This document shows, piece after piece, positions 12,276 to 30,035 of a stretch of DNA of 31,629 nt. Location: positions 1-31,629 of the forward strand of contig JAILZY010000038.1 in NCBI GenBank assembly GCA_023512255.1, given 5' to 3'. Made by a program: the position numbers and the translations under genes. Position 1 is the stretch's first letter. Each line of letters begins with the position of its first letter. The notes beneath the pieces are model-generated. The model was not told the origin of the DNA, searched no databases, and was given only the letters and a program-made list of their open reading frames with translations. Source of the DNA: a bacterium. Lineage in GTDB: Bacteria > SZUA-182 > DTGQ01.

Positions 12276-13139
12276 TTAGTTGAGATCAACTTTGGGCAAG
12301 AATTTATCCAGCAGCTCAAGGAGCACCTCGGGTGCTTGCATTGGATAAAAATGCCCCTGGCCAGGAACAAGTACAAATTCACAATTTGGCATAATCTCTC
12401 TTAGCCTCTCCCCAATGGCCCGATATGGGGATGAGGCGCCGTAGATGCAAAAAGTAGGACAGTAAATGTGGGAAATTTTCTCCTCAGTTAAGGTTTTTAC
12501 CGACCGAAATTCTTTAAGGACCGTGGTCTCCTCGATCAGCTGCATAAGGCGATCCGATTTTCTGGCTCCTCCGAGGCGAAGGCCATGCTGGATAGGGACA
12601 TAAAGACTTTTCCGCACTACATTTTCAACATCGATCAGCTCTTCCTCGGTGTGGATGCCTAACCGATCTAGTTCGTCTTGCCAGATCTGCCATCCTGGCC
12701 AGTTATCCAGCCGCCTAAGATGCAGCAATGCAGGGATGCCCGCATCCAGGATTACTACCCCGGCCGCTTGCCGAGGATAGGCAGCTGCAAAATGGAGAGC
12801 TATAGCTCCACCAAAACTATGGCCGATCAGCAGAGTGCGGCTAATGTTTAAATGGTCCAAGAGGGCCTTAAGATCCTCAACCATCTCATCCGAGGTATAT
12901 CCGCTAAAGGGGCGGTCGCTGTAGCCATGTCCTCTGAGATCATAGGCAGTAACCCGATACTTCTTGGCCAGGGCCGGTAATATGTGCATAAACCAGATCG
13001 AGAGATTTCCAGTGATTCCGTGAATTAGGACAATGTCAGCCCCTTGTCCGTGTTGCTGATAATGGATAGCTAATCGACTAGCCTTAGATTGAGTTTCCTG
13101 GTGAGTGGGATTTGTGGTGTTTAAGAGAACTTTCGGCAT
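12276..13139 (-). CDS. alpha/beta hydrolase, last gene of the megasynthase operon
   Basis: 287 aa, usual length. Strand and loop motifs are clear: oxyanion loop LIHGITGN, then YDLRGHGYSD, nucleophile elbow GHSFGG with Ser108, and the catalytic histidine His263 in PGQGHFYP. The acid usually found after strand beta-7 (G-x-x-D) is not seen: the segment reads CIYGASSPYR, with Ser at the expected place; Asp132 after beta-6 could replace it. The family includes esterases, thioesterases and lactonases. Since neither megasynthase carries a thioesterase domain, releasing or moving the acyl product is a reasonable inference. The gene begins 21 nt after the phosphodiesterase stop, on the same strand, with AAGGA about 9 nt before ATG. 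There is no signal peptide, so it should act in the cytoplasm. Confidence 0.85.
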   Translation of the reverse strand: MPKVLLNTTNPTHQETQSKASRLAIHYQQHGQGADIVLIHGITGNLSIWFMHILPALAKKYRVTAYDLRGHGYSDRPFSGYTSDEMVEDLKALLDHLNISRTLLIGHSFGGAIALHFAAAYPRQAAGVVILDAGIPALLHLRRLDNWPGWQIWQDELDRLGIHTEEELIDVENVVRKSLYVPIQHGLRLGGARKSDRLMQLIEETTVLKEFRSVKTLTEEKISHIYCPTFCIYGASSPYRAIGERLREIMPNCEFVLVPGQGHFYPMQAPEVLLELLDKFLPKVDLN

Positions 13140-13160
13140 TATTTTTCATCCTTATGGCTA

Positions 13161-14795
13161 TTAAACATACCCTAGACTCTTCAGGCGAAGCATGATCTGC
13201 TCCTGCCCTTCTACATCCTCTCTTTGGGGAGAAGCATCTTGATTTCGTTCAGGGGGCACAGTAGGCGCCCCAGTTTCTACCGGATGAGTTCGTAAAAATG
13301 CAGGATCAAAGATTTGGGTAATTACCTGGCCTTCCATATCCGAGGGTATGGGAATACCCAGGGTATGGAGCAATGTCGGAGCGACATTAATAATAGATGT
13401 TGGGGGAATAACCTCACCCTTTCGGATCGCCGGACCTACGGCGGCAAAAACCCCCTCAGGCCGATGAGTGCCCATGATCTGCGATCGGGGTCGGCAGTAG
13501 ACCTCCGAAGGATAAATGGAGATAAATCCGCTATCTCGCAGGCTTAGGGTCAAATCAGGGGCACAATCAATGAAGTTTCCGGCAAAGGCCTCTTCCCGAG
13601 TCCAGATTTCCTTGATCAGCGGCTCTCCGCTCTGGGGATCGAGGCAGCTATTCCGCAGCTTGTCTATCAACTCTTCGCGGAATGAAAAGTATTCTTTCGC
13701 CGGGATCCCCTCTTCGCCTCTTTTCCCAGCCACCTGAATGATGATTCCGTTGCTGCTAGCAGTGGCTGCATAGGCTTTGGTCTTTTTCCAGTCAAGATGT
13801 AAAAGGCTCCGGTAGGGGGATTCAACTCCCAGACTTTCGATATCTTCTGACTGCCCAGCCACTGATTTTGTGCCTATAGCCGTACTATCCTTCCACTTTA
13901 GATACCCTTGTTGGCAGAGCCACTGATTGAGGTAGAGAATTTCCCTGGTAGGGCCAAAACCATGATCCGAAGCAATGAAAATGTTAGCCTGCGCCCCAGC
14001 CAGATCAACGATCTGCTCTAGAAATTCATCCAGGTTGCGAAAATACTGCAGGCACAGCCGCCGCACCTTTTCCTCCCAGGCCGCGTGAGGCTTCAGGGCA
14101 TAGGCCGGATCAAGAAACCGCCAGCAGACATGCTGAATACGATCAAGGCCATCAAAGATCATGGCTGTCAGGTGGCATGGATCGTGCTTCATTAGATAGC
14201 GCACCACCTCAAACCACTGCCGCTCCCGGCGAATGTGCAGCCAGATCCAGTCCTCATACTCTTCCCTCTGGCATCCTTTGACCGCCTTTTCTTCTTCCCT
14301 AAAGTTTAGGGCCATCTCCTTGACATCAAAGCCGTCTATTCCCCGCAGACGATCAAAGAGATCTTCTGGATAGCTGTTTTTGCGTAGCCATCGCCAGCTA
14401 ACGAAGCCAGGAATGATATAGCCCCGAATCGCCGGTGGGGGATTCATGCCGATAAAATTTAAACTTCCAGCCCGCATCCCATGTCGGTTCACTATTGACC
14501 AAATGGTCTCTCGCTGGATATCGCGGAAGGAAAGCCACTTGATGTACCGACTCTTGGGTGATTCGAATTGCAGAAAATTAAATACCCCATGAGTTCCCGG
14601 TCGGACCCCGGTTATTAGAGAGATCCAGGCCGGAGGTGTGAGGGGAGGGATAACGGAGGTCAATTCTCCCCGGCATCCTAAGGAGATTAACTTCTTGAGA
14701 AAGGACATGGTTCCCTCTTCCATAAGATGGTCCAGAATGGTAAACGATGCCCCATCAAGTCCGATTAAAACTGTTTGCCTATCGAGACAGCTCAT
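13161..14795 (-). CDS. alkaline-phosphatase-superfamily phosphodiesterase (type I phosphodiesterase/nucleotide pyrophosphatase-like)
   Basis: 544 aa. The metal-site aspartate Asp14 is in LIGLDGAS, and the nucleophile is probably Thr53 in PPLTPPAW, followed by TGVRPGTHGVFNF, the typical start of PF01663-like enzymes. Further metal ligands are visible in DGLDRIQH, IASDHGFG and GTHRPEG. The family cleaves phosphodiester or phosphomonoester bonds and includes enzymes acting on lipid head groups and glycan anchors; the substrate here is unknown. There is no signal peptide, so a cytoplasmic role is more likely. The start ATG is a single base after the ACP stop, with GGAGA 6 nt upstream inside the ACP gene, so it is translationally coupled to it. 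A role in processing phosphopantetheine- or phospholipid-linked product would fit the operon but is inference. Confidence 0.82.
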   Translation of the reverse strand: MSCLDRQTVLIGLDGASFTILDHLMEEGTMSFLKKLISLGCRGELTSVIPPLTPPAWISLITGVRPGTHGVFNFLQFESPKSRYIKWLSFRDIQRETIWSIVNRHGMRAGSLNFIGMNPPPAIRGYIIPGFVSWRWLRKNSYPEDLFDRLRGIDGFDVKEMALNFREEEKAVKGCQREEYEDWIWLHIRRERQWFEVVRYLMKHDPCHLTAMIFDGLDRIQHVCWRFLDPAYALKPHAAWEEKVRRLCLQYFRNLDEFLEQIVDLAGAQANIFIASDHGFGPTREILYLNQWLCQQGYLKWKDSTAIGTKSVAGQSEDIESLGVESPYRSLLHLDWKKTKAYAATASSNGIIIQVAGKRGEEGIPAKEYFSFREELIDKLRNSCLDPQSGEPLIKEIWTREEAFAGNFIDCAPDLTLSLRDSGFISIYPSEVYCRPRSQIMGTHRPEGVFAAVGPAIRKGEVIPPTSIINVAPTLLHTLGIPIPSDMEGQVITQIFDPAFLRTHPVETGAPTVPPERNQDASPQREDVEGQEQIMLRLKSLGYV

Positions 14796-14796
14796 T

Positions 14797-15120
14797 CTAA
14801 TTCTCCAGGGTTTGATTTTCTAGATTTTGATGAATAAAATTAACTAGATCCTTGACCTTGATATCTCGAACCTCTTTTTCTCCAACACTCGCCAAATATT
14901 CAGCAAAGGGGAAAGAACGATTGAAGTGCTCTTCAATCATCGATCCTAAAACCACAGCATCGATAGACTCAAAATCCAGATCAGTAAAGAGTGAGGTTTC
15001 CGGCGTGATTTCACCAGAATACTCCCATTCATCTTTTAAGCTGCTGATTATTTTTGATACCGAATGGAAAATGCTCTCTTGTCTTGGCACTAAATCTTTT
15101 TCCTGATTTCTTTCATCCAT
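14797..15120 (-). CDS. stand-alone acyl carrier protein
   Basis: 107 aa. A helical carrier domain covers about residues 15-100, with the phosphopantetheine-attachment serine in LDFESIDAVVLGSMIEEHF; the central Asp of the common DSL motif is Glu (ESI). The predicted role is to carry acyl chains or extender units on a 4'-phosphopantetheine arm for the neighbouring synthases, hydrolase or phosphodiesterase. It is divergent from the LGIDSIKR carriers inside the two megasynthases, which suggests a different partner, for example loading or off-loading. The frame is open further upstream, but ATG at 15120 is chosen because GGAGGT at 15129-15134 lies 8 nt before it and because it overlaps the preceding gene by 8 nt (ATGGATGA), the same arrangement as between the two megasynthases. 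Confidence 0.85.
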   Translation of the reverse strand: MDERNQEKDLVPRQESIFHSVSKIISSLKDEWEYSGEITPETSLFTDLDFESIDAVVLGSMIEEHFNRSFPFAEYLASVGEKEVRDIKVKDLVNFIHQNLENQTLEN

Positions 15121-18100
15121 TATGAGATACCTCCATAGAGCCCTTATCACCCACTTTCGAAATCGCCACAGCCATGATATATTCTCTCTCCTGCACCACC
15201 GTATATACCCTGTATACTCGGATGGAATCGCCTTTTCCAAGGCAGGGGAATTTTCTCTCAAATTCTCCTCCCCCCAAAGATACTTTCACCTCCCCGCCGG
15301 AGAGATCGAATTCACCGATGGTGATTTCTTTCCATAAGGGGTCGGGGAGAGGGGGGCTTTGCCTACCTTGGCCAGATTGCCCCTTGGGTGGGGATAGGCC
15401 AAGGGCCTTGGCCACTGCCTCTTTAGCACATCGAAGCCGCAAGAATCCCTCAATCTGCCTTTTGCTGTCTAATTGAAGCAGGAGGGCTTTCTCTTTCGAG
15501 TTGCAAAACATATCTAAAGATTCTAATAGCTCCTTACTGCTTTCTCCCATTTTCATCTGTCCGCTGCTTCCAGAAACCTTCGGATACGGGCTCAGGCTGA
15601 TCCCCACAGACATTCCTTCTTCGGCGACTACGGCTATGGCTGTATTGTCGGTCTGAGCCAGGCAGAGGGAGGCTGATACCCCTATCTGCCTCATCCACTC
15701 TTCCTCTGGCTTCGGCTGCCCGTGGGCATCATCGGTTAGGCTAATATCAGCCGGATAGAAATCTCCGTATCCGAAGGAGCGCAAAAAACCTCGGATCGCA
15801 TCCTTGGCCGCCATTCTGCCGATCAGCCACCTTCCCTGCTCTGCGGCATCAGGCAATTGATGGTAGCTGTGCCGCTCCTTGCGGCTTAAGACCATATAGG
15901 CCATGACCTGTTTAAACATATCCGCATCCCCTCGCCAAAACTGCTGGACCAGGGAGTAAACCGCACAGACCTTCTGCTTTTTGCCGCCTCCCTGGGACTG
16001 AGGGGCAGAGATAATGGATTTATAGGGAGCCCACTGGCCAGTGTCGGAAGTTGTAGCCACAAGCTGGCCAATAAAACCTAGATGCGGAAATCTCCAAAAG
16101 TCATATAGCTCCCTTGACCACCAGAAACGCCAATCCTCCCAACCAATGAGCTGCATCAGTATCTGCCCGCCGTCGGGAGACAAGAGGTCAAGATCAGCTC
16201 GAATCCGGCTGCTAGTTATCTCCCGCAGTCGCATTCGGGTTGGCAGGTGGTTGAATGGAGCAGGAGGCGGCCCATACAGCCGCAGAGACTCAAGAGCAAT
16301 GGGGAAAATGACAAAGCCGCTGTTCAGATACTCGACCGGCCAGTATCCGACTAGTTGTCCGGCTGCATCCAGCAAAAAGGGATCGGTCAGAAATTGCGGC
16401 TTTGGATTAGATCGAAAAAGATTATCTGTCGGCAAGACCCTGAGCTGAGCGGACAATCCATTTTCTCCAACAGCCTCCAGGGAGGCGATCCCCTGAAAAC
16501 GCGGGCCATGAAACATACGGTGTTGGCTGTAAATTTGCTCCGCGGAATGAGAGGGGCGCCGCTCATTCTGAAGGGTAAAATCTGCCATTTGGGGTGGTGC
16601 GGGATATTGATCGGCAAAAAACAGCCGGGCGCTGATTAGTGGTTTTTGGCCCTTATCCAGTAAGGCTAGCTCTTGGCCGCTGGTTTTGCTTGTCTCCTCA
16701 TCATCTCTTTGCCCCTGGGAAGAGAGGTTAGCAGAATAAGAGCCTTCCCTCAGTTTGTAAATCAGAGCTGTTGCCTCTTGTTGGGCTGTCAGCTCTGCCT
16801 TGACCAAGAGAGTAGCCGCTTTTTCATTCTCCAGGCAGATCCATTGGCTAGCCGCTACTTGGTCAACCCGAATCAGTTTTTGGCCGGGAAAGAGAAGCGA
16901 GGCGACCTCAGCCATGATCTCGATGCTCACGGTCATGGGAACTACCGGCAGAGCACCTAAGGAGGCATCGAGTGTGGAAATCTTTTGCCCGAATCGGTGG
17001 TCATCAATGAAGAGATCTTCTGATAGGTCTATGGATATTATGACCGTAATGCTTTTGCCGGGCTTAAAATCAATTGTCCTGCCCACAAAGGGAAGTTTCC
17101 CGGCATTTGGCCCCGCACCTATTCTTTCTTTAAGAAAATTAATAACCTGACGTATGGTTTTGAGCCCTGAGATGATTTCAGTATCTTCTTCTCTCAACTG
17201 AGCATACTTAGTGCGGAATGAGCCGATAATTTCAACTCGCTTGATCGAGTCGATCCCAAGATCGCCTTCCATATCAAGATCAAGGTCGATCATCTCTTTT
17301 GGATAGCCTGTTTTCTCACTGACTAGATCAAGCATGATCCGGGTGAGCTCTTCCTCGCTCATTCGGGAGGGGACCTCAGGGCAGACCGCCAGGGCCGAAG
17401 AAGGCCGCTGCTCTTGGCTTTCCCTAGATAGGGCCTCTGGCTTGAGATCAGGCATCTGGCTTTTAGCTTCTCTCTTCTTGCTCTGCTGCTCTTTTGCGCT
17501 CTCAGTGCTATTATTTTCAGACCTATTATTTGTGCCTTTATTTGTTGTGCTTTTGATCCTCTCCCACTCTTTTGCGCTCTTGATCTTCCCACCGCCAAGA
17601 GCAGGCAGATCGCTGCGGCCACTTTTGTGCTCCAGGTAAGTCTCCATCATCTCCTTCTGCAGAGTGAGAAAATCAGTCATGGTTTGAAAGTAGCGCTCCA
17701 TCACCGAGGATGGGCCTGCCTGGGCAAGTGGAGGGGCCTGATTCAGAAATTCAGGCCGTGCGAAGCCGTCGGCTCCAACAACTGAGGAGAGACAAACAGA
17801 GCCTGAAGAAGGTGCATAATCGGCACCTGATAGAGCGTAATCAGCGCCTAATGGTGCGTAATCGGTGCCTGATGGTGCATAATCGGCAGCCGCGGCTGTA
17901 GCCGTAGTATCTGGGAGAGAAGGCAAGGGAGGCGGAGTAGGGGAGTGGGGAAGAGATGAGGGGAGAGATGATGAGGAAGATAGCTCGCTTTCAAGGGATT
18001 TGCTCGTGGAAATAGGGGCCTGAGGGTGAGCTTTGCGCGCCTTGCGCTTTTTTACAGAAAGAGAGTATAGGCCAAGCGGAATCTTAATTTCCACTCTTCC

Positions 18101-21091
18101 TTTGGGCTTTTCCTTAGGCTGCTGATCAGTCCAGAGAATGGTTTGCGGGCAGCGGTATTGATATAGATATTGGAAGTTTAGGGGGATGCCCTGAGCACTT
18201 AGAAGGCCGACCAGATGATTGAGCTGAGTAATTCCTGATCGCCTCATGACATTAGAGGCGATAGCCAGATGAGGTTTCCCCCGCAGGATATCTTCAACAA
18301 AGGCGGTGAGGTTTCCTCTTGGGCCTACTTCAATAAAAATTCTGGTGCCAGAATTGTACATATTTTCAATTGTTTGTCTAAAAGCCACCGGCATGATCCA
18401 GGTTTTTACCGCAAGCTCCAAAATCTCCCCTGGCTCTTTTGGATATGGAGACATGGTCGTGCAGGAGTAGATTTCCGTCCTGGGAGCAGAAATCGAGAAA
18501 GAGGAGAAATACTCCCGCAGATGGGAGCAGATCGGAGCAAAGAGCGGCGTGTGGTAGCCTCGATCAAAGGGCAGTTTCTCAAAAGGTATGGCCTTGGCCC
18601 GCAGACAGACCATAGCTTCCTGAGCAATTCCTTCCTCTCCGGCGATTATCACCTGATGAGGGCAGTTATCATCGGCCACATACATGATTGATCTTTCGCT
18701 GCTTTGTTTTTTCATGCCCTCTTTGTCTTTCTGCCTTTCGTTGATTTGATCGAGAATCGGCTTGACCTGGTCCAGACCTGCCCCCACTGCAATCAGTGTG
18801 GCTTTGGGGATAGTAGGATCGAGCGATAGTTTGCGGTAGATCTGATTTAGTCTGCCCGTATTGCGTAAGAATTCCTCTGGATCGATTATGCCGGAGAAAA
18901 CCATAGCCGACCATTCTCCAGCGCTATGGCCGACCATCTGATCGGGCTTGATATCGAGACAGCTTAGCAGGGTGTGCATGGCCAAGTTACTGGTCAAAAC
19001 AGCCTCTGTGGCCCGATCCATTCTCCAAAGCCGCCTCTCGGCCAAGGCGCGCTCTTGTTCGGAAAAGAATGGTGGTGGGAAGATGTTGTAACTTGGCAGA
19101 TCCTTCTGTCCCTGCTCAAGGAGGATCTGATCGCCTCGATCGAAGCATGAGCGGACCTGCGGAAAATACATACAGAGATCGGCTAGCATATTTACATATT
19201 GAGCCCCTTCGCCAGGAAAGAGAAAGGCAAGCTTCCCTTTGCCCCGGCGGGGATTAGATGCAATCAGAGGGGTTTCAAAAAAGTAAATTCCTTTCAGATC
19301 CTTGATCTGGTGGCATTCTAAATCAGCGAGCCGCTGCCGGGCATAGGCTATCTTTTGGATAAGATCATCGACTGAGGAGGCAACCGTAGCCAGACGATAC
19401 GGCTCAAAGCCAAGCCTTGTGTTCAGGCTGTAGGCTAGATCAAGGAGTTGGGTTCTTGGGTTTTGGCCTAGGAACCGCTGAATGCTCTCGATCTGCTGAA
19501 TGAGCTCTTGGCGGCTTTGCCCAGAGAAAACGAAGACCTCTGTTTCCCAAAAACGGGGCGTGCTGGGCATTGACAGGCGGATGCCTTCTGTCCCTTTCTC
19601 TATCTTTTCTGTTGTTTCCTGATTGCTGCTAACATATTCTTCCAGGATCAGGTGAGCATTGATGCCCCCAAAACCGAAGGCATTCACCGCGGCCCGGCGG
19701 GGAAAGTCTTTTTCTCCATGAATCCAGGGCCTGGTTTCGGTGTTTAGATAGAATGGGGTCTTTTCAATTTCTAGTTTAGGATTGACCGTCTGGCAGTTAA
19801 TTGTTGGCGGCAGAATTTTATGGTAGAGGGCTAGGGCCGCTTTGATTAGCCCAGCCACTCCAGCCGCGGGCATGGCATGGCCAATCATTGATTTGACCGT
19901 TCCAAGAGCGCAGCGAGGTCCAGACCCATCCCTCTCTCCAAAGACCCGCCTCATGGCCTGAACCTCAATCACATCGCCTACGGGAGTTCCAACCCCATGG
20001 GCTTCGATAAGCCGGATCGTACGGGGTGAAATTCCAGCATATTCATAAGCTCGGCGCAAAGCAAGCTCTTCCCCCTCCAGCCTGGGAGCCACCACGCTGA
20101 CCGCCCGGCCATCGCTGGAAACACCAATTCCCTTGATGATCGCGTAAATTCGATCTCCATCTCTTTGGGCATCACTTAGCCGTTTTAATACCACTACCCC
20201 GGCCCCCTCGCCGGGCAAGGTTCCATCTGCATCTTTATCAAAGGGACGAATACATGAGCTCAATGACATAGCCTGGAAGGCACAAAAGATGAGTAAAAAG
20301 GGAACGTTGGCGAAAATGTGGACACCGCCGGTAATGGCCAGATCGCATCTTCTGTTGATCAGGTCTTGCACACCAATGTCAGTGGCGATCAGGGAGGAGG
20401 CGCAGGCCGCATCAACGGTAAAGTTTGGCCCCATGAAATCCAAACGATTGGCTACCCGGCCAGTGGTCAGATTGGGAATAAAGGCTGGAGCTGAATCGGC
20501 ACTGAACCTGGGAAGACTTGCAAGGAGCTCCCGGCGGATTTCAGCCAGCTCTTCTTTGGTCAAATCTGGCTGAATATCCTTTAGGATATTCAGGGTTTGT
20601 TCGGTAACAATGCTTCTTTGGATGAGATTTGAGGCCCCTACTCCCAGATAGTTACCTCGCCCCAGGATAAACTCGGTGCGGTGGTTGTTGACCGGCCGAT
20701 CAAGGTAGCCGGCATCTTTCAAAGCCTCATGAACCACCTGTAGGATCAAGAACTGATCAGGCTCTCCTCCCTCTACGCCTCGGGGCATGACTCCGTATTG
20801 AGCCGGATCAAAGGTCATAAATTCGTCAAGATATCCCCCGCGCTTGCAATAGACCTTATTAAGGTCATCGGCCTGTTCCGAAAAATAGAGCTCAGCATCC
20901 CACCGCCCAGGGGGAACGTCGATGATCGAATCTTTCTTGGCGAGAATATTATGCCAATAGGTTTGAAGGTCAGCCGCACCCGGGTAGACGCAAGCCATGC
21001 CGATAATGGCCACATCTTCCCGCCTGCTTGATTTCTCACCGCTTGATGTTTGATCTGTGCCTGTAGTCAATGTTGTCTTCACCTTATTCAT
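15113..21091 (-). CDS. type I PUFA-synthase-like megasynthase: KS-AT-ACP-DH-PPTase-like
   Basis: 1992 aa. The ketosynthase (about 26-485) has Cys230 (VDAACASS) and both histidines (EAHGVGT; KSMIGHAMPAAG). The acyltransferase (about 620-935) has Ser723 in GHSAGEW and the later histidine in RGYHTPLF. A low-complexity linker holds a 7-residue tandem repeat. The ACP (about 1240-1320) has Ser1282 in LGIDSIKR, the Pfa-type motif. The double-hotdog dehydratase (about 1345-1640) has His1365 (DDHRFGQK) and Asp1575 (LLDAAG). The last 300 residues resemble a phosphopantetheinyl transferase (WLIGRMAAKDA; HGQPKP; CAKEAVAK), but the usual GxDxE metal site reads GISLS. No KR, ER or TE is seen, so reduction must come from the partner protein. 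The start overlaps the upstream gene's stop by 8 nt (ATGAATAA). Relation to omega-3/secondary lipid synthases is from motif style; the product is unknown. Confidence 0.88.
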   Translation of the reverse strand: MNKVKTTLTTGTDQTSSGEKSSRREDVAIIGMACVYPGAADLQTYWHNILAKKDSIIDVPPGRWDAELYFSEQADDLNKVYCKRGGYLDEFMTFDPAQYGVMPRGVEGGEPDQFLILQVVHEALKDAGYLDRPVNNHRTEFILGRGNYLGVGASNLIQRSIVTEQTLNILKDIQPDLTKEELAEIRRELLASLPRFSADSAPAFIPNLTTGRVANRLDFMGPNFTVDAACASSLIATDIGVQDLINRRCDLAITGGVHIFANVPFLLIFCAFQAMSLSSCIRPFDKDADGTLPGEGAGVVVLKRLSDAQRDGDRIYAIIKGIGVSSDGRAVSVVAPRLEGEELALRRAYEYAGISPRTIRLIEAHGVGTPVGDVIEVQAMRRVFGERDGSGPRCALGTVKSMIGHAMPAAGVAGLIKAALALYHKILPPTINCQTVNPKLEIEKTPFYLNTETRPWIHGEKDFPRRAAVNAFGFGGINAHLILEEYVSSNQETTEKIEKGTEGIRLSMPSTPRFWETEVFVFSGQSRQELIQQIESIQRFLGQNPRTQLLDLAYSLNTRLGFEPYRLATVASSVDDLIQKIAYARQRLADLECHQIKDLKGIYFFETPLIASNPRRGKGKLAFLFPGEGAQYVNMLADLCMYFPQVRSCFDRGDQILLEQGQKDLPSYNIFPPPFFSEQERALAERRLWRMDRATEAVLTSNLAMHTLLSCLDIKPDQMVGHSAGEWSAMVFSGIIDPEEFLRNTGRLNQIYRKLSLDPTIPKATLIAVGAGLDQVKPILDQINERQKDKEGMKKQSSERSIMYVADDNCPHQVIIAGEEGIAQEAMVCLRAKAIPFEKLPFDRGYHTPLFAPICSHLREYFSSFSISAPRTEIYSCTTMSPYPKEPGEILELAVKTWIMPVAFRQTIENMYNSGTRIFIEVGPRGNLTAFVEDILRGKPHLAIASNVMRRSGITQLNHLVGLLSAQGIPLNFQYLYQYRCPQTILWTDQQPKEKPKGRVEIKIPLGLYSLSVKKRKARKAHPQAPISTSKSLESELSSSSSLPSSLPHSPTPPPLPSLPDTTATAAAADYAPSGTDYAPLGADYALSGADYAPSSGSVCLSSVVGADGFARPEFLNQAPPLAQAGPSSVMERYFQTMTDFLTLQKEMMETYLEHKSGRSDLPALGGGKIKSAKEWERIKSTTNKGTNNRSENNSTESAKEQQSKKREAKSQMPDLKPEALSRESQEQRPSSALAVCPEVPSRMSEEELTRIMLDLVSEKTGYPKEMIDLDLDMEGDLGIDSIKRVEIIGSFRTKYAQLREEDTEIISGLKTIRQVINFLKERIGAGPNAGKLPFVGRTIDFKPGKSITVIISIDLSEDLFIDDHRFGQKISTLDASLGALPVVPMTVSIEIMAEVASLLFPGQKLIRVDQVAASQWICLENEKAATLLVKAELTAQQEATALIYKLREGSYSANLSSQGQRDDEETSKTSGQELALLDKGQKPLISARLFFADQYPAPPQMADFTLQNERRPSHSAEQIYSQHRMFHGPRFQGIASLEAVGENGLSAQLRVLPTDNLFRSNPKPQFLTDPFLLDAAGQLVGYWPVEYLNSGFVIFPIALESLRLYGPPPAPFNHLPTRMRLREITSSRIRADLDLLSPDGGQILMQLIGWEDWRFWWSRELYDFWRFPHLGFIGQLVATTSDTGQWAPYKSIISAPQSQGGGKKQKVCAVYSLVQQFWRGDADMFKQVMAYMVLSRKERHSYHQLPDAAEQGRWLIGRMAAKDAIRGFLRSFGYGDFYPADISLTDDAHGQPKPEEEWMRQIGVSASLCLAQTDNTAIAVVAEEGMSVGISLSPYPKVSGSSGQMKMGESSKELLESLDMFCNSKEKALLLQLDSKRQIEGFLRLRCAKEAVAKALGLSPPKGQSGQGRQSPPLPDPLWKEITIGEFDLSGGEVKVSLGGGEFERKFPCLGKGDSIRVYRVYTVVQEREYIMAVAISKVGDKGSMEVSHNG
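15129..15134 (-). promoter_or_regulatory. strong ribosome binding site that sets the ACP start
   Basis: GGAGGT on the minus strand, 8 nt upstream of ATG at 15120 and inside the end of the 1992-aa synthase gene. It supports the short, 107-residue ACP rather than a version reading further upstream inside the synthase gene, and suggests re-initiation at high rate so that free ACP is made in excess. Confidence 0.7.
17811..17894 (-). repeat. 21-bp tandem repeat encoding ADYAPSG-like units in the AT-ACP linker
   Basis: Four in-frame 21-bp units (17811-17831, 17832-17852, 17853-17873, 17874-17894, the last diverging at its end) encode heptads such as TDYAPLG, ADYALSG and ADYAPSS in the 1992-aa protein. 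Units share the plus-strand core GGTGCATAATCGG with few changes. The region is a flexible linker between AT and ACP, so copy number probably varies without harming the domains. Confidence 0.8.
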
Positions 21092-24000
21092 AACCTCTTG
21101 TTTGTCCTGTTTTTTCAGCTAATCGATTCAAAGACTTGCTGCACGCAGCTTCCATATCTTCTAGCAGGGCGATAAGTTTCCCCTCCTCGGTAAAAAAACC
21201 AAGATCCGCATGGAGTATCCCAGGCGTAGATTGAGGCAGTATCCTACCCTCAAACCGGATTCTGGAGCCAGACAGCGGAGCCAGAATCCGAAAGAGCCTA
21301 AACCGCGAAGGCAGAGGCATCATATCCCAATAGGTTCTTGACCATAGGATAATCATCTGTAGCCCACAGTCCATGATGACCGGATCAATCAGCCAGCTTC
21401 CCAATGGATTCCCAGCCAGAAGCTTTTGAGGATCAGAAGGGGTTAATAACCCCTGAATGCCGTTGACTCCGATATCCTCAATGGTTGAAATTCCCTGAAA
21501 CAGAGGACCGTGAAACAGCATCTGCTGATAAGCCTCCCTAGTGCTCAAGGGGAAGGGCCTGGCTTCTAGCAGAGCAGGCGGCTGCCAGTCAAGGTGATTA
21601 GTACTCCCTTTGGCCATTTCGATAATAAGGCTGTAGTGGCGCCGCGGGGGCTTGTCTACGCTCTGTATTTCCACCTGTACAACCAGATTGCTGCTGATTG
21701 ATGGACTGGCAGCAGGTGGTGAGGAGATAACGGCTTGGCTGTCGGTCGGCAGGGGAGTAGCTATGTCAGTTTGCAGGGGAGTGGCCACGATCCTAACCTT
21801 GGTTGGTTTGCTAACGATAATCCCCTGCAGGACGCGAAGGTCTCGGGCTTGGCTAATCTGCCACTTTGGCCATCCCAGGGCCGCCACTTCGGCCATAAGC
21901 TCAAGGGCCATAGTCATTGGCAGAACAGGCTTTCCGTCCAGGCGATGATCCTTAAGATACAGATCTCTTTCTACGTCCAGCTCACGAACGATTTCAATCC
22001 CTCCCTCTTCATTAGGAGGAAAATCGATTCCAGGTGCAAAGAGGGGAAAGACTGCCTGTCCTCTCGCTTTAGCCCCACCGCTTTCGGCTCTTTTGGCCAG
22101 AGCCGCCTCCCATCCCCCTCCGCCTAGGATAACCTCGACCTCTCCTTTCGGGCCGTAGCAGATTTCCCGATCCAGCATCTTCGGCCCGTCAGCGCGGGAG
22201 ATGAGCTGTATTCCATGCTTTAAGAATTCCGCCTGGAGGGGGGGAGGAACCATATTGGAATTCTCCCAGGGGCCCCAGTTGATCGAGACAATTTTCCCTG
22301 GCCAGCGGTCATTCAGATAAATAGCCAGCTTGTTGAGAACCTCATTGGCCGCAGCATAATCTCCCTGCCCCCGGTTGCCGAAGCGCCCGGCTACTGAGGA
22401 GAAAAAGACCATGAATTTCAGGGACTCAAAACGAATCTTGCGGCTTAGGATAAAGGCACTGTCAGCCTTAGTGTCAAAGACTCGGTCAAATGAGTCGACA
22501 GTTTTATCCTTGATGAATTTATCCTCGATAATTCCCGCGCCGTGGATTAGACCATCAATTCGCCCAAAGGTTTGGTATATTTCGTCAATCAGTCTGCTCA
22601 TCGACGCCTCATCCCGCACATCCACCGCATAGTAGTATACCTTGGCTCCGAGGGTCTGAATGGCTTTTATGTTGCTGCGGATTTCCTCGGCTTTCAACAT
22701 CTTCTGGTATCTGGCCTCGACTCGGGCCGGGCTAATCTGCTCCCCGTTGCGCTTCATTTGCTCGATGAGGCGTGCTTTTACCTCCTGGAGAGGGCCGGTG
22801 AGATCAGGCCGCGGCTCCTGGTCATGCTCAGGCAGGGGGGATCTGCCCAGCAAGATCAAGGTGGGCTGATAGCGTCTAGCCAGCTCTTTGGCTACATCGG
22901 CGGTAATGCCCCGCGCTCCTCCGCTGATGAGTATGACCCAAGAAGAGTCGATCTGCACTCTAGCCCCTGAATGCTCGTCCTCCCGTATCGGTGCGGGGAT
23001 CAGCTTTAGGGTAAAGCGGCTTCCGTGGCAGTAGCCTACCTCTACCTCATCTCTCTGGCAGCCTATCTCATTGAGCAGATGTTGAACCAAGCAGGATGCA
23101 TCCTCCTGCGGGTTAAGGTCTATGGCCTTGAGCCGCACTTTTGGCCACTCATACTGCAAGCTCTTGATCAGCCCGATGCAGCCTCCCTGAGAGGGAGAAA
23201 AGTCTCTGCGATCTCCATTGAAGGGAATGCTGCCAAATAATCCTCCCATGGAAGTTACCGCCATGAACAAAGTTTTATCCTGAGCTTGCCGAAAATCAGG
23301 CTCAACTGCCCTGGCGAAGTAGAAGAGGCTTTTAACCTCAAGCCGAAGCTGCCTTTTCCATTGATCTAGATCTAGATCATAAATTCCCCGATCGGTCTGA
23401 TCATTTCGGAAGGGATAAAGGTGGATCAGCGCCCCGATCGAGCCCTGATGCTGGCGGATACAATTCAGCAGGGAGTCTACACTCTCCGGGCGGCCAAAAT
23501 CAGCCTGGTAGTATCCTGGCTGGAGTTCACTGACTGTGTCTGCCATCCGCACCAGGGCGACTTTTTGTCCCTGCTCTGAAAGCGTCGTGGCCAGAAGCCG
23601 AGCCAGCCCTGCTCCATCCTCGGTAATAACCACTACCTTGCTCTTATCAAGGGCGGAAGCTGCCCCATGCTGCTGCTGCCGTGGGGTGCAGGGTGTTTCC
23701 ACCCCCTCTAGGATAAATCTAGGGATAGTCGGCCCTGGTTCAGGGTGGTGGAACACTTGGGGCTGTTTACGGCTCTCTTGCTTGCTTTCAGCGCCTCCTT
23801 TTTTTTGTTCACTGACTTTAGCTATCCAGTCGATGATCTCTTTTAGAGTCTTTGCCCCAGTCAAATTTTCCATCTCTTTCTCTATACTCTGCCCAAGGGA
23901 AGAGCTGAATTCTCGCTGAAAACTGCCCAAGATCTCTACCCGCTTAATAGAGTCGATGCCAAGGTCTGCCTCCATGTTCAGGTTCAAATCTAGTATTTCA

Positions 24001-27000
24001 ATGGGATAGCCTGTCCGCTCACTGACAATCTTTAGCAAAAGTTGCTGAATTTGTTCTTGGCTTGCGGCAATTTCGTCTTGGCTTGTGGCGCTTTGCTCTT
24101 GGCTTGCGGCTGACCCTGAAGAGGTAGCCTCTTGTGGCCCTGAAGGAGTGGTAGTCTCTTGGCTTCTGTCCCTGTCAGCTGCCTTGGGAGCAGGGAGAGC
24201 AGCCTCTTGCTCTGATGGGGAAAGAGCGGCTTTGCGCTCTGCTTTGGTGAGAAATTCTCCCTCCCCTAGGGCCTCTTCCTCAAGCTTTCTACTTGCCTGC
24301 TGCGGGATGCCCTGCTTCTGCCTGGGCGGCGCAGGTGCATTAGAGGCCGTATGATAGCCTCTGCCATTGACAGTTGTTGTCTGCTGCTGCTTGTGGGGGA
24401 GCGTGGCAGGCTCCTGTGCCCCCAGCTCAGATGGCCATGTTGTAGTTGCTTGGCCATCCGGCCTTGTGGCCGCTGGGAGGCCTCTTCCTGATTGGAGGTA
24501 GCGCAGCATGACCGCTTTTTGAGTATCTAAAAATCGACTCATCATTTCCTGAAACTGAAGCATGACCTGATCTTCAGCTCTCGGTATGGATAGTGCTGTT
24601 ACCACATCCTGTTGATCTTCAATATACTGCTGCTGTAAGGGGTGCTTTCCGGTGCTATTTTCTTCCTGTCCCATGCCCTGATCCTCTCTATATGGCTGAT
24701 CAACTTGACGAGAGATAGTAGAGATTACATCTTGAGCTGACTCCTGCTTCTGGCTGGAAATCCGCGGCCAGGAAAGACTTATTTCTCCTGCCCTCTTTTC
24801 TGCCCTCTCTTCACTTACTGCTGAAGTTGATGTCCACTGCCCACTTTCGACAAGCTCTTGCCTTGTGGCTTGTGTCGGCGATGAATTTGCAGCCTCTGAT
24901 GGCTCTCTCTTGCCCCTTTTGGCCTCATGCCAGGGCCGAATACGGTCTCCTCGAACCATCCAGATGGTTGAAGAAGGTAAGCGGCCGGCCGAGCGCGCCT
25001 CTTTGCCTAGCCAATCTTCCTCATAGCAGGTGCGGTCTGAGTAGAAAGGATCAAGATTCATCGACTCTCCCTGAACAAATATCTGGCCAAGGCAATGTTG
25101 TAGGTGTAGCAGCCCTGACCGCCCCGGTTGGTCCAAAGCTACGCTTAAGGCAGGACGATCCTTTAAAATCTGGCTGACCAGACGGCTCAAGACATTTTTT
25201 GGTCCAACCTCGATGAAAATCCTTGCTCCGGCCTCATACATAGCTTCGATTTCCTGCCTGAAGAGGACCGCCTCTGCCAGGTGCCTGACCATCTGATCAG
25301 CTATCTTGGCTGGATCGCTAGAGTGAGGGCCAGCCGTGGTATTGGAATAAACTGGAATTTTCGGCTCACTCATCGGCACCTCTCTCAGGAATTTTGCAAA
25401 CCGCTCCCTGGCAGGATGGATGAGTGGAGAGTGAAAAGCACAGGCAACCTCCAATATCTTGGCCTCCACTCCGCAGGCTTTACAGTGGTCAACCACCTGC
25501 TGCACGGCTTTTGGTGTTCCAGAGATTACGGTCTGCTCAGGAGAGTTGTAATTGGCGATCCACACCTGCGTCGAAAGTCCGCTGATCAGCTCGGCGGTCT
25601 GCTCTCCGGAGGCTTTGATTGCGGCCATAATCCCAGGGCAAGAGTCTGCTGATTCCTCGATGATTCGGCCTCGAGCCTCTGACAAGAGCATCAGGGATTG
25701 TTCGCTGAGGACGCCTGCGGCCCACAGGGCTACGTACTCACCGAAGCTGTGGCCGGCGACCATGTCAGGATAAATCTCCAATTGGCTGAGGAGACGGCTC
25801 AAGGCCACACTGGCTGCTCCGATTGCAGGCTGAGCAATCCTGGTGCGGGTGAGCTCCTTTTGCTGTCTGGCTTTGTCCTCGGAACTGAACACTGGCAAGG
25901 GGAAGATGTAGTCGCTAAGTCTTCTGGGTAGTTTCGGTTTCAGAATCTGGTCCATCTGCTCGAAACAGGATCGGACAGAGGGAAAGTGAAGGGCTAGATC
26001 GCGAGCCATGTTAGGATATTGTGATCCTTGGCCGGGAAAGAGAAACGCAATTTTCCCGCAAGCTTTTGACGAAGGCCCGCTGAGGAAAATGCCATGAGGG
26101 TCATGATAGTCGACTGCTTCATGGCCCGATTGTGTAACCTTTATGCTTTGGTTAAGTTTTTGGACCAGATCCTCAACTGAGGTGGCTACGATGGCCAGCC
26201 GAAACACTGCTGAGGATGAAGAGCTGTTTTTTGCTCCTCCCACCCCGGCAGCCGCAGCGGTCCGCCGCTTCTCTCTGGCTGGGCAGGCCGCGGCTTCCTT
26301 AAGCTTCTCCCAGCGGCAGCAAGCTGCCTGATGAAGGGGCAGCCCCTGCTGCTCCTTTGCCAGATTATTTAGCTCATGTTTTATCTGCTCTTCAAGCTCC
26401 TGCTTTGATTGCGCTTCCCACAAAAAGAGCTCAGCCGGCCATCGCTGATAGAGCAGCGGCGGGGTTGTCTTTTGGCAGTAGTTTTGGGTATATTCTTCTA
26501 GCACGGCATGGAAATTGGTTCCTCCGAAGCCAAAAGCACTTACCCCTGCCCGACGGGGATAATCGCCATCACTCTTTAGCCAGGGCCGAGGCTCGGTATT
26601 GACATAGAAGGGGCTGTGCTCAAAATCTGCTCTCTTGTTAGGCTGGCTGACCCCAATGGTTGGCGGCAAAATCTTGCTGTGCAGAGCCATGGCCACCTTG
26701 ATCAAGCTGGCTACTCCAGCAGTGCATTTGGTATGACCGATCATGGACTTGACTGATCCGATAGCGCAACTTTGGGGCCTGGCCTGAGCCTCAGCAAAAA
26801 CCCGGCTAAGTGCCTGGACTTCAGCTCGATCACCAGCCACTGTCCCTGTGCTGTGAGCCTCGATCAGTTCGATGGTCGCAGGACTTATGCCAGCCTGGGC
26901 ATAGGCCCGCTTGAGAGCCAGAATCTGCCCTTCGGGGCGTGGTGCAGTCAGGGATTTATCCCGACCATCGCTGGAGCTCCCTACAGCCTTGATGACCGCA

Positions 27001-30000
27001 TAAATCTTGTCCCCATCACGTTCAGCGTCAGCCAGTCTTTTCAGGATGACCACTGCTACCCCCTCGCCCAGCACAATCCCATCGGCACTATCATCAAGGG
27101 GCCTTGAGCGGCCGGTTGGAGACAGAGCCTGGGTTTTGGAAAAGCACAAGTAAGTGAAGGGATTTTGCATGGTATCGCTTCCGCCGGCCACCACCATATC
27201 ACTGCTGTAGGACTGAAGCTCTCGAACCGCTAGATACACGGCAGCCATTGAAGAGGCGCAGGCAGCATCCACAGTGAAATTTATCCCTCCAAGATCAAAG
27301 CGGTTAGCTACCCGGCCAGCCGCTACATTCATCAGGATGCCGGGGAAGGAATCCTCGGTCCATTCTGGGAAAAATCCATTCATTTGGGAAATAAGCCGAT
27401 CCGCCTTGAGCAAGCCGTTGCTCATATGCTCCATGAGGGGGATAAAGGAGCGGATGCTGTAGGCAATTCCCAGATCAGCTACCCCGCCGCCGGCTCCTAA
27501 GATGACCGAGGTGCGCTCCCGGTTAAAGGAGCGGGTTAGGTAGCCGGCATCTTTCATCGCCTCCCGGACCACCTGAAGGGTCAAAAGATGAAGAGGTTCG
27601 ATAGAGCGCAGGCTATTGGGCGGCATTCCATACTCCATAGGGTCAAAGGGGACCTCATCAATGAAGCAACCCCATTTAGAGTAAATTTTATCCTGGGCTT
27701 TCCGATCCTGGTGGTAGTAAAGTCGCCAGTCCCACCGATCTGGGGGAATCTCCTCAATGGCCTCAACCTTGTCGATAATGTTGGCCCAATAGGTGTGCGC
27801 ATCCGGGGCCTTGGGCAGAATGCAAGCTAGGCCAATGATGGCAATGTCGGGAACCTTGGGGGAGCAGACCTTAGCCCCTGCTGATGCGGGCAAGGGCTCT
27901 CTCTGCTGGAGCCCCAGTGGCTCTTTCCTCTCTCCCCAAGTGAGAGGGAAAAGTGGAGAGAGCTCAGATTCTTTGGCGATCACCTCACCAAGCTTTTCTG
28001 CTCCCTTGCAGCTCAGATCCTGATGCAGTGCTTCAATGGTAGAGGCCCGATCCCGCAAAGCCGCAATCTGGCCAATCATGTAAAGCCCTCGCTCCCGCTG
28101 CTCTTCTGGGCTTAGCTGAACGTACTGAGGCTGTGCTTTGCTGTCGGCTGAGGGTTTTCGGTCAATTCCCTTGGCGGCAATTCTAAGACGGCCAAGATTT
28201 AAGGCCTCTAGTGCATTTCTGATCTCTTCAAGAGGGCGGCCCTCGGAGAGCATTTTTTGTTTTTCCTCGATGAAAAGCCGGCTAAAAGGGGTAGCCAGAC
28301 ACCGGGTTACATAGCCTGGTGCAGCCTCAAGCCTAACAGTGCCTTTGGCCGCCAAGGCAGCTTGTTGAAATTCCGAAACGATGGCCCCGCAGCTGACCGC
28401 CTCTTCAGTGAATAGGTAGGCAGAGCCTACCTGCATGCCAACCTGAACGCCAAGCTCAACCAGAGGGGCAACCGGCATAGCAGCCATTAGAGAAGAGAGG
28501 GCATCGTGAATCCCACCAGCAAGCAGTATCTGATAGGAAGAAGCATCTGTGCGGCCAGAGAGAAACTCGGCAAGGACCTCAAGACAACTCTCCCATAAGA
28601 CAAAGCTGCTTCGCGGCCCAAGGTGTCCGCCGCACTCAAGGCCCTCAAAAATAAACCTTTTCAATCCCTCTCTCAAGAAAAGTTTTAGCATACCCGGCGA
28701 AGGACAGTGAAGGTAGGTAGCAATCTGCTGCTGCTCGAAAGCCTTAGCCTGCTCTGGTTTTCCACCGGCGATTAGGGCAAACCGTGGCCGGTGGGTCAAA
28801 ACGGTCTCCATCTGTTCTTTGAATAGATCTGCCGGAATAAACCCAAGCATTCCAACTCCCCAAGGGAGCCCGGCCAGCTCGGTTTCACATCTAGCCAGCA
28901 GTTTGTCGACCTGATCAGCCCTCATCATGGCCAGCTCGATAAAGGGGAGAGCTCCTCCCTTAGCTACCTGCCTGGCAAACTCAGGTACATCGGAAATTCT
29001 GGCCATCGGTCCCTGAACGATCGGATAGCGGCTGCCGTGGCTTTTGGCTAAGCTGCTCCCCTCCCGGAAGGGAAATCCCTGCTTAGCCACACAGCAGAGA
29101 TGATCGCTAATTGAGCGGCGAATCCCTTGGAGTATGCCGCCTACGGTTCCAAATTTTTTGGCCAGAGAGGAAGCAAAGGCAATATCCTGCCCCAAAATTA
29201 AAAGCTCCTTTTCAAGGGACTGCCAACCTGTCCGCTGGCTAATAAGCTCTCGCCAGGCGAGCAGATGCTCGGATGAGTCCTGCTGCTTGGCAAGCTCTCT
29301 CTCCTTAGCCTGAAGCTCTTTTATAACCGGCAGATTGGGCCTTGCATAGACCCGATAGAGAGAGCCAAGCGTCTCTCCCAGACAGATGGTTTCACTTCCA
29401 TCGAGTGCGGTCAGGCGCATCTTTACCTCCTTAGGCAGGGGAGACTCCTGAGCCAGGAGAAGCTGAGAATCCAAAACAATACCCTCTGCTCCAGCCGCAT
29501 AACAGCTTGTTGCCGTGTGCAATCCAACCCCTCCGTGCACCCAGACCGGTAGGTTGAGGTGAGCGAGTATTTTTTGAAGCAAAACAAAAGCGGTCTCTTC
29601 ACCGATCCGACCTCCTGCCTCATGCCCTTTGGCCACAATGCCATCAGCCCCAAGCTCTTTCCCAATCTGTGCCTGCCGAAGACAAATGCTTTCGTAAAAA
29701 ATGGTAAGACCCAACTCATGAAAGGTGCGGATGATTTTCCGCAAATTATGAATCTGACCACAGGTCAAAATTACATAGCGAAGCCGCTCCGGCCTAGTGT
29801 GAGCAAGATAGGAGCTGATCTCAAAGAGGAAATCGCTAGCCTGTCCATCTAGTTTGATTCCAAATTCTCCTCTCCCATATCTGCTCAGCCGCTCGATGCC
29901 CTCTTGAGCCATCTGCAGGTTGCGGGAATACTCAAGATTCAGGATACCTAATTCTCCGGCCCGGCTTGCCGCTATAGCCATAGATGCATCTGGCTTCCCA

Positions 30001-30035
30001 GCCGGAGTCAGAACGATTATGCTAAATTTGCGCAT
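21084..30035 (-). CDS. type I PUFA-synthase-like megasynthase: NPD-NPD-KS-AT-ACP-KR-DH
   Basis: 2983 aa. The N-terminus is unusual: two tandem nitronate-monooxygenase/PfaD-like flavin domains (about 1-250 and 330-640). The first has HEAGGRIG with Arg143 where the family has His; the second keeps ECGGHLG with His471. KS (about 728-1180): Cys926 (VDAACASS), EAHSTGT, GHTKCTAG. AT (about 1325-1640): Ser1430 in GHSFGEY and CAFHSPL, malonyl-like. A long Ala/Gln/Ser-rich linker follows. ACP (about 1993-2070): Ser2029 in LGIDSIKR. KR with its structural half (about 2130-2660): SGGARGIT cofactor loop and Tyr2560 in GDYAAAN. DH (about 2680-2960): His2697 (KDHRLDGK) and Asp2889 (IMDCGLQ). NPD domains act as enoyl reductases in Pfa systems, so all steps of a reducing chain extension are present. 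It is the first gene of the operon; ATG at 30035 has GAGGG about 11 nt upstream. Confidence 0.88.
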   Translation of the reverse strand: MRKFSIIVLTPAGKPDASMAIAASRAGELGILNLEYSRNLQMAQEGIERLSRYGRGEFGIKLDGQASDFLFEISSYLAHTRPERLRYVILTCGQIHNLRKIIRTFHELGLTIFYESICLRQAQIGKELGADGIVAKGHEAGGRIGEETAFVLLQKILAHLNLPVWVHGGVGLHTATSCYAAGAEGIVLDSQLLLAQESPLPKEVKMRLTALDGSETICLGETLGSLYRVYARPNLPVIKELQAKERELAKQQDSSEHLLAWRELISQRTGWQSLEKELLILGQDIAFASSLAKKFGTVGGILQGIRRSISDHLCCVAKQGFPFREGSSLAKSHGSRYPIVQGPMARISDVPEFARQVAKGGALPFIELAMMRADQVDKLLARCETELAGLPWGVGMLGFIPADLFKEQMETVLTHRPRFALIAGGKPEQAKAFEQQQIATYLHCPSPGMLKLFLREGLKRFIFEGLECGGHLGPRSSFVLWESCLEVLAEFLSGRTDASSYQILLAGGIHDALSSLMAAMPVAPLVELGVQVGMQVGSAYLFTEEAVSCGAIVSEFQQAALAAKGTVRLEAAPGYVTRCLATPFSRLFIEEKQKMLSEGRPLEEIRNALEALNLGRLRIAAKGIDRKPSADSKAQPQYVQLSPEEQRERGLYMIGQIAALRDRASTIEALHQDLSCKGAEKLGEVIAKESELSPLFPLTWGERKEPLGLQQREPLPASAGAKVCSPKVPDIAIIGLACILPKAPDAHTYWANIIDKVEAIEEIPPDRWDWRLYYHQDRKAQDKIYSKWGCFIDEVPFDPMEYGMPPNSLRSIEPLHLLTLQVVREAMKDAGYLTRSFNRERTSVILGAGGGVADLGIAYSIRSFIPLMEHMSNGLLKADRLISQMNGFFPEWTEDSFPGILMNVAAGRVANRFDLGGINFTVDAACASSMAAVYLAVRELQSYSSDMVVAGGSDTMQNPFTYLCFSKTQALSPTGRSRPLDDSADGIVLGEGVAVVILKRLADAERDGDKIYAVIKAVGSSSDGRDKSLTAPRPEGQILALKRAYAQAGISPATIELIEAHSTGTVAGDRAEVQALSRVFAEAQARPQSCAIGSVKSMIGHTKCTAGVASLIKVAMALHSKILPPTIGVSQPNKRADFEHSPFYVNTEPRPWLKSDGDYPRRAGVSAFGFGGTNFHAVLEEYTQNYCQKTTPPLLYQRWPAELFLWEAQSKQELEEQIKHELNNLAKEQQGLPLHQAACCRWEKLKEAAACPAREKRRTAAAAGVGGAKNSSSSSAVFRLAIVATSVEDLVQKLNQSIKVTQSGHEAVDYHDPHGIFLSGPSSKACGKIAFLFPGQGSQYPNMARDLALHFPSVRSCFEQMDQILKPKLPRRLSDYIFPLPVFSSEDKARQQKELTRTRIAQPAIGAASVALSRLLSQLEIYPDMVAGHSFGEYVALWAAGVLSEQSLMLLSEARGRIIEESADSCPGIMAAIKASGEQTAELISGLSTQVWIANYNSPEQTVISGTPKAVQQVVDHCKACGVEAKILEVACAFHSPLIHPARERFAKFLREVPMSEPKIPVYSNTTAGPHSSDPAKIADQMVRHLAEAVLFRQEIEAMYEAGARIFIEVGPKNVLSRLVSQILKDRPALSVALDQPGRSGLLHLQHCLGQIFVQGESMNLDPFYSDRTCYEEDWLGKEARSAGRLPSSTIWMVRGDRIRPWHEAKRGKREPSEAANSSPTQATRQELVESGQWTSTSAVSEERAEKRAGEISLSWPRISSQKQESAQDVISTISRQVDQPYREDQGMGQEENSTGKHPLQQQYIEDQQDVVTALSIPRAEDQVMLQFQEMMSRFLDTQKAVMLRYLQSGRGLPAATRPDGQATTTWPSELGAQEPATLPHKQQQTTTVNGRGYHTASNAPAPPRQKQGIPQQASRKLEEEALGEGEFLTKAERKAALSPSEQEAALPAPKAADRDRSQETTTPSGPQEATSSGSAASQEQSATSQDEIAASQEQIQQLLLKIVSERTGYPIEILDLNLNMEADLGIDSIKRVEILGSFQREFSSSLGQSIEKEMENLTGAKTLKEIIDWIAKVSEQKKGGAESKQESRKQPQVFHHPEPGPTIPRFILEGVETPCTPRQQQHGAASALDKSKVVVITEDGAGLARLLATTLSEQGQKVALVRMADTVSELQPGYYQADFGRPESVDSLLNCIRQHQGSIGALIHLYPFRNDQTDRGIYDLDLDQWKRQLRLEVKSLFYFARAVEPDFRQAQDKTLFMAVTSMGGLFGSIPFNGDRRDFSPSQGGCIGLIKSLQYEWPKVRLKAIDLNPQEDASCLVQHLLNEIGCQRDEVEVGYCHGSRFTLKLIPAPIREDEHSGARVQIDSSWVILISGGARGITADVAKELARRYQPTLILLGRSPLPEHDQEPRPDLTGPLQEVKARLIEQMKRNGEQISPARVEARYQKMLKAEEIRSNIKAIQTLGAKVYYYAVDVRDEASMSRLIDEIYQTFGRIDGLIHGAGIIEDKFIKDKTVDSFDRVFDTKADSAFILSRKIRFESLKFMVFFSSVAGRFGNRGQGDYAAANEVLNKLAIYLNDRWPGKIVSINWGPWENSNMVPPPLQAEFLKHGIQLISRADGPKMLDREICYGPKGEVEVILGGGGWEAALAKRAESGGAKARGQAVFPLFAPGIDFPPNEEGGIEIVRELDVERDLYLKDHRLDGKPVLPMTMALELMAEVAALGWPKWQISQARDLRVLQGIIVSKPTKVRIVATPLQTDIATPLPTDSQAVISSPPAASPSISSNLVVQVEIQSVDKPPRRHYSLIIEMAKGSTNHLDWQPPALLEARPFPLSTREAYQQMLFHGPLFQGISTIEDIGVNGIQGLLTPSDPQKLLAGNPLGSWLIDPVIMDCGLQMIILWSRTYWDMMPLPSRFRLFRILAPLSGSRIRFEGRILPQSTPGILHADLGFFTEEGKLIALLEDMEAACSKSLNRLAEKTGQTRGYE
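24048..24110 (-). repeat. 21-bp tandem repeat encoding AASQEQ-like units before the ACP
   Basis: Three in-frame 21-bp units encode AASQEQS, ATSQDEI and AASQEQI immediately before the ACP domain of the 2983-aa protein. The plus-strand landmark TCTTGG recurs at 24055, 24076 and 24097, exactly 21 bases apart. The unit length equals that of the repeat in the partner synthase although the sequences differ. Confidence 0.75.

Follow-up and report, generated by a model that had tools for sequence, protein, structure and literature searches.

What kind of product does the large lipid synthase operon at positions 12276–30035 of this contig make, and is the system behind it a new one? The window analysed here is the whole contig (C18, 31.6 kb) and belongs to a metagenome-assembled genome of 172 contigs (3.8 Mb, 97% complete). 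Secondary-lipid synthases, the Pfa-like type I fatty acid and polyketide synthases (PKS), have few known products, and a preliminary description of this DNA regarded the domain order as uncommon and the system as undescribed. The latter claim holds in part. The cluster is a common, uncharacterised cousin of the Azotobacter cyst-lipid (ars) system and not a one-off; its kind of synthase was already known through ArsA and ArsD, while the product of the two-synthase cluster stands undescribed in the literature that was searched.

The operon comprises five minus-strand open reading frames (ORFs) with intact coding frames and successive gaps of -8, -8, +1 and +21 nt, and both the gene boundaries and the domains first described were confirmed to the base by ORF coordinates and Pfam. 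Its upstream region is cut off by the contig end at 31629. In the first synthase Pfam recognizes NMO, ketosynthase (KS), acyltransferase (AT), PP-binding, ketoreductase (KR) and PKS_DH/PS-DH domains, in the second KS, AT, PP-binding, PS-DH and ACPS, and in the remaining three genes, in order, PP-binding, Phosphodiest and Abhydrolase. The catalytic residues are present wherever they were checked (KS1, KS2, AT1, AT2, KR, the dehydratase (DH) domains DH1 and DH2, the phosphodiesterase and the hydrolase), and among the parts of the cluster only the phosphopantetheinyl transferase (PPTase) domain at the end of synthase 2 appears broken. With at least one KS, acyl carrier protein (ACP) and KR, and a PfaA-like core detected by NCBIfam model TIGR02813 (P0001, 1248.9 bits, above the cut-off of 1010.1; P0002, 687, under it), the system belongs among the secondary-lipid synthases. 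It has one ACP per synthase and no tandem ACPs, which are typical of such enzymes but not required (PMC3098273).

Among systems whose product is known, the nearest is the ars alkylresorcinol/alkylpyrone locus (Type P of Shulse and Allen). In a plasmid search the best named match was pBIND02 of Beijerinckia indica ATCC 9039, a strain already named as a Type P (ars type) carrier (PMC3098273), in which the order is NPD-NPD-KS-AT-ACP-KR, two type III PKS and DH-PPT. Residues 5–2637 of P0001 align in two stretches with the ArsA-like protein encoded by the first pBIND02 gene, the NPD-NPD-KS-AT portion (residues 5–1721) at 42% identity, and residues 1329–1898 of P0002 (570 residues) align with the ArsD-like protein of the last gene (E = 2e-62). 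A search against characterised synthases had been proposed in the preliminary description, which itself had missed this kinship. The window thus resembles the ars loci of Azotobacter vinelandii and B. indica in its NPD-NPD-KS-AT-ACP-KR first protein and homologous DH-PPTase. It differs in the extra DH on synthase 1, the KS-AT-ACP unit fused ahead of the ArsD-like part, a PPTase domain without its Asp, the free ACP, NPP-type phosphodiesterase, hydrolase and propeller genes that follow, and the absence of a type III PKS from the host genome. No such enzyme (ArsB/ArsC) was found in the window or the host genome with PF00195, an ArsB-like protein query or PF02797, the last of which also gives matches in three of 14 control genomes; a search with PF00195 alone would say little, since ArsB-like proteins are picked up by PF02797 but missed by PF00195. 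On the simplest reading, KS2-AT2-ACP2 would occupy the place that ArsB and ArsC hold in the ars locus.

A quick KS tree sets KS1 apart from both the PfaA/HglE and the ArsA groups. Beijerinckia, Methylosinus and Paraburkholderia form an 8-row ArsA clade (node value 97, starred), and the window falls in a separate 67-row group (94). The ArsA group, a Melainabacteria group, the window group and a branch uniting PfaA/HglE with all KS2 arise from one unresolved region, so that the tree does not settle which arrangement came first.

Synthase 1 (P0001, 2983 aa; 21084..30035, minus strand, as are all features of the operon) is ArsA-like with an added C-terminal DH. Two NMO stretches bear out the two NPD barrels that had been proposed; they are strongly unlike each other. 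NPD1, a flavin enoyl-reductase-like barrel (29046..30035), carries the motif GHEAGG, and NPD2, a PfaD-like barrel (27936..29045), carries ECGGHLG with the proposed catalytic His. Motif III of enoyl reductase (ER) domains is xEAGGH (PMC13311796); NPD2 (GGHLG) shows a clear catalytic His motif, and NPD1 (GGRI) does not. Since the ER domains of thraustochytrids form a heterodimer (PMC13311796), an intramolecular pair of unlike barrels is a reasonable arrangement. These are followed by KS1 with Cys/His/His intact (26346..27848), a malonyl-type AT1 (GQG, AQP, RG, AFH; 25152..26045), a single ACP1 (23823..24041), the KR with Ser/Tyr/Asn intact (22263..22934) and DH1 (DHRLDGKPVLP; IDPVIMDCGLQ; 21144..21989). 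All were located by Pfam or motif alignment, most by both.

In synthase 2 (P0002, 1992 aa; 15113..21091) a KS-AT-ACP unit is fused to an ArsD-like DH-PPTase: KS2 (19415..21019), AT2 (18278..19225), ACP2 (17132..17332), DH2 (15992..17059) and the PPTase-like domain (15116..15994). KS2 was considered as a chain-length factor (CLF) and ruled out on the presence of its Cys. With Cys/His/His intact its residues are those of a normal ketosynthase, which makes terminal extension its likely role, and these residues are kept nearly everywhere among the relatives. The two ATs form a sharp dichotomy. GQG (except for one GQA pair of rows), AQP/TQP and RG are kept in every synthase-1 AT examined, whereas the malonyl-selecting Gln and Arg are both gone in every synthase-2 AT examined, GQG usually reading GEG, with Ser and His remaining (GHSAGE and GYHTP in the window). 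PfaB shows the same Gln/Arg loss and is a long-chain acyltransferase without malonyl-CoA binding (PMC12895367). AT2 matches the PfaB-like signature of that study, Gln/Arg pair lost and Ser/His kept, and on this resemblance we infer that it would transfer the grown acyl chain and not malonyl. No solved structure of a close relative was found; by sequence, the nearest PDB entries are modular PKS, 7zma among them.

This AT2 specialization is among the features that the preliminary description did not record, as are the degenerate PPTase domain and a sixth conserved gene treated below. The metal-binding Asp of the PPTase VGxDxE motif is lost in all four host-family genomes (the host G000 and G001 to G003), where the site reads VGISLS, AGISID, RGINLE and KGITLQ, VGISLS being the window's own version; in about 38 of 43 other rows the motif is intact. 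KEA is kept in G000, G001 and G003 and reads KGA in G002. The end of P0002 therefore lacks the signature of an active Sfp/PfaE-type PPTase (VGxDxE Asp/Glu plus KEA). A separate intact PPTase (VGIDVEE) is encoded on contig C151 of the host genome, and an unrelated Sfp-type PPTase is able to serve a Pfa system (PMC4882568), which makes priming from elsewhere plausible. Because the fused domain looks inactive, the ACPs of the host lineage are probably primed by this separate host PPTase.

The claim of an uncommon domain order did not survive a scan of named-species genomes with four host-family proteins as queries, which returned 79 related loci from about a dozen phyla, cultured strains among them. 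Carriers include Rubrivivax gelatinosus (L097), Hydrocarboniphaga effusa, relatives of Nitrosomonas and Fischerella, anammox planctomycetes, other cyanobacteria, Acidobacteria and Tectomicrobia. Most loci that are long enough encode NPD-NPD-KS-AT-ACP(1–5)-KR(-DH) and then KS-AT-(ACP)-DH-PPTase. A KS and an AT on each synthase are borne out, but the single ACP per synthase, which the preliminary description took as characteristic, holds for the window and not for the group: among relatives synthase 1 carries one to five ACPs and synthase 2 mostly none. In cyanobacteria synthase 1 is split before the KR. Only one KS occurs in Paraburkholderia, Methyloversatilis and a Methylococcales bin, together with a chalcone-synthase-like gene and a DH-PPTase. 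Nearer to the host, the cluster occurs in all four sampled host-family genomes and in none of the five sampled relatives outside the family, of which one shares its order and four its class. The five genes do stay together: the same set is complete in G001 and G002 and split across two contigs in G003, and the downstream genes recur in other phyla. Forty-one loci extend 11 kb or more downstream; a PPTase domain is present in 39 of them, a second KS in 33, a free ACP in 25, the phosphodiesterase and the hydrolase in 23 each and the propeller in 19. Since these partners recur and co-vary with the synthases, the downstream genes, including the phosphodiesterase and hydrolase as first proposed, belong to the cluster. 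As a separate observation, the anammox carriers of this synthase type are Loosdrechtia and Brocadia (L033, L084), whose lipid biosynthesis is of interest in its own right.

The first of the partners, a free ACP of 107 aa, runs from ATG 15120, which is preceded by GGAGG (14797..15120; the mechanical ORF begins at TTG 15261), and its carrier Ser is present in 27 of 27 sequences. P0004 (544 aa, PF01663; 13161..14795) is an NPP-type phosphodiesterase of the alkaline phosphatase superfamily with no evident signal peptide. Its seven metal and nucleophile residues (D14, T53, D218, H222, D277, H278 and H444) are invariant in 24 sequences, and according to its structural model it has the NPP fold with two metal sites and a Thr nucleophile. 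The model matches ENPP7 with Z 27.3, with ENPP7 and the PafA monoesterase at most 1 Z apart; as mono- and diesterases score alike in the fold search, this does not assign a substrate. The alpha/beta hydrolase (287 aa; 12276..13139) has a Ser108 (GHSFGG)/Asp132/His263 triad by Pfam and active-site alignment; its Ser and His are kept and the acid lies at the alternative position after strand 6. The cluster does not end at 12276, as had been supposed: P0006 (9636..11885), a sixth conserved gene, and P0007 (8649..9368) come next on the same strand and in the same order in relatives. P0006 is a predicted secreted beta-propeller (predicted local distance difference test score 74) behind a signal-anchor-like helix. 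It matches no Pfam or NCBIfam family, and a fold search returned only generic propellers with low TM-scores, which we did not use as evidence of function. Propellers of this type, for which neither database has a model, accompany the cluster in 19 loci from several phyla. P0007 is a secreted protein with a 3-keto-disaccharide-hydrolase/LamG-like domain (PF06439) that adjoins the cluster in the host genus, and we are unsure whether it belongs to the system.

We propose, with a probability of roughly 0.6, that the cluster encodes an ArsA/ArsD-lineage assembly line for a secondary lipid, a second KS-AT-ACP unit having taken the place of the type III PKS step. On synthase 1, malonyl units would be loaded by AT1 and condensed iteratively on KS1, and reduction by the KR, by DH1 and DH2 and by the pair of flavin ER-like domains would yield a long, mostly saturated chain, of about C22–C26 by analogy with ArsA. 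AT2, which no longer has the residues for holding the malonyl carboxylate, would pass the finished chain to KS2/ACP2 or the free ACP. One or a few final extensions by KS2 would follow, and DH2 may leave these units unsaturated. On the free ACP the chain would be offered to the finishing enzymes: the hydrolase would release it or transfer the acyl group, and the NPP-type phosphodiesterase would remove or swap a phosphodiester-linked group on the head or carrier. The secreted propeller may help with cell-surface placement.

Several points weigh against this proposal. The KS tree has long branches flagged by the program and does not fix the order of the deep groups, and the alignment of the AT2 Arg column is uncertain by about one residue. 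Pairwise gene distances co-vary strongly (Mantel r 0.82 for KS1-KS2 and 0.60–0.93 for other pairs; 0 of 999 permutations reach the observed values), a sign of co-inheritance that shared ancestry alone would also produce. The finishing steps are not shared by the whole group: in some relatives sulfotransferase or glycosyltransferase genes are found in place of the ACP, phosphodiesterase and hydrolase. Finally, the literature searched gives no product or chemistry for carriers of the two-synthase type.

A PUFA (polyunsaturated fatty acid) product of the EPA/DHA kind, with DH2 as an isomerising dehydratase and KS2 as a late-stage ketosynthase in place of PfaC, would account for the passing PfaA score of P0001, for the two DHs and second KS that recall the two-KS logic of PfaA/PfaC and for the PfaB-like losses in AT2. 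PfaABCDE systems (Types A and B) indeed share with the window an iterative KS-MAT-ACP-KR core, a flavin TIM-barrel reductase and a second AT without the malonyl Gln/Arg pair. However, there is no CLF and the KS2 Cys is intact, KS1 lies outside the PfaA/HglE group, and the best homologue of known type is ArsA-like, the chains of which are C22–C26, for example behenic acid (PMC3098273). The Type A/B set of a KS-CLF-DH-DH PfaC, separate PfaD and PfaB is absent; the reductase is fused and doubled, the AT is fused, DHs occur on both proteins, ACPs are single and the KS clade is another. We consider a PUFA product unlikely, and the earlier view of a synthase distinct from classical PfaABCD, with its reductase fused, is supported.

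Equally improbable, in our view, is a single complex in which KS2/AT2 serve only as scaffold or loading unit, a plain saturated very-long-chain acid is released by the hydrolase and the phosphodiesterase acts on ordinary phospholipids to let the chain in. As ArsA and ArsD make plain, a C22–C26 chain requires no more than one KS, AT, KR and DH, the phosphodiesterase fold is nearest the ENPP7 sphingomyelinase and other NPPs, and the Ser-Asp-His of the hydrolase is intact, but the retention of the KS2 catalytic residues nearly everywhere argues for catalytic use. That the phosphodiesterase, hydrolase and propeller are mere neighbours with other jobs, as the synthases of Rhodobacteraceae, Melainabacteria and ars-type loci without these genes might suggest, is more improbable still, given the same order and strand in the host family, Acidobacteriota, Tectomicrobia, Cyanobacteriota and several Pseudomonadota, the tight junctions and the strong co-variation.

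Returning to the assembly line with a replaced type III PKS step, a bolder version of it is tentative and somewhat doubtful: that these clusters make a widespread undescribed class of long-chain lipids, in which a KS-AT takes over the head-forming step of the type III PKS and the NPP-type phosphodiesterase finishes the molecule on the free ACP, perhaps through cleavage of the phosphodiester link in the carrier arm or head. If correct, the assembly-line proposal would show alkylresorcinol-type and all-type-I systems descending from one core by a swap of the terminal condensing enzyme. Being common, found in cultured bacteria and equipped with conserved finishing enzymes whose catalytic residues are clear, the group lends itself to a direct search for its product.

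Two further classes deserve comparison. The HglE/HglC heterocyst glycolipid synthases (Type F) are likewise Pfa-like secondary-lipid synthases with a second KS/AT protein, but HglC is described as KS-CLF-AT without a DH (PMC3098273), unlike synthase 2. A Fischerella genome encodes TIGR02813-scoring Pfa/Hgl-like synthases of another clade besides the one of the window type. Type O of Shulse and Allen (Dinoroseobacter, Parvularcula and Gloeobacter; product unknown) overlaps in carrier taxa (Rhodobacteraceae and cyanobacteria), and the window type may be of the same class. The host genome also encodes separate FabF- and FabD-like proteins of an ordinary type II system.

Sulfotransfer_3-like genes lie near related clusters and APS-kinase-like genes near cyanobacterial ones (L050, L055, L070, L075, L095, L100, L101, L104 and L111); such clusters perhaps make sulfated forms of the lipid. 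Tandem repeats of 21 nt occur within the flexible linkers of the two window synthases (17811–17888 and 24048–24110). In the synthase linkers of G001 (L025, 6063–19899) in-frame repeated peptides such as SGQWSVVS, GSQESGV and PDSCLLTPDSC look as if a short dispersed DNA repeat had been inserted into the coding linkers.

Terminators and promoters between the operon genes were not found above chance, and no structured RNAs or tRNAs were found in the window. The A+T-rich stretch upstream of the operon (30036–31629) holds a proline-rich ORF (30938–31405, minus strand). Upstream of the cluster in G002 and G003, and divergent from it, are genes for an extracytoplasmic function-type sigma factor and a zinc-finger anti-sigma-like protein (L028, 3679–5258; L029, 3901–5343); the window contig ends before the equivalent region. 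At the other end of the window, P0008 (5658–8363, minus strand) combines an ammonium transporter with GAF, HisKA and HATPase domains in one protein and is followed by an NtrC-type response regulator, P0009 (4078–5571), the two forming an Amt-histidine kinase sensor pair.

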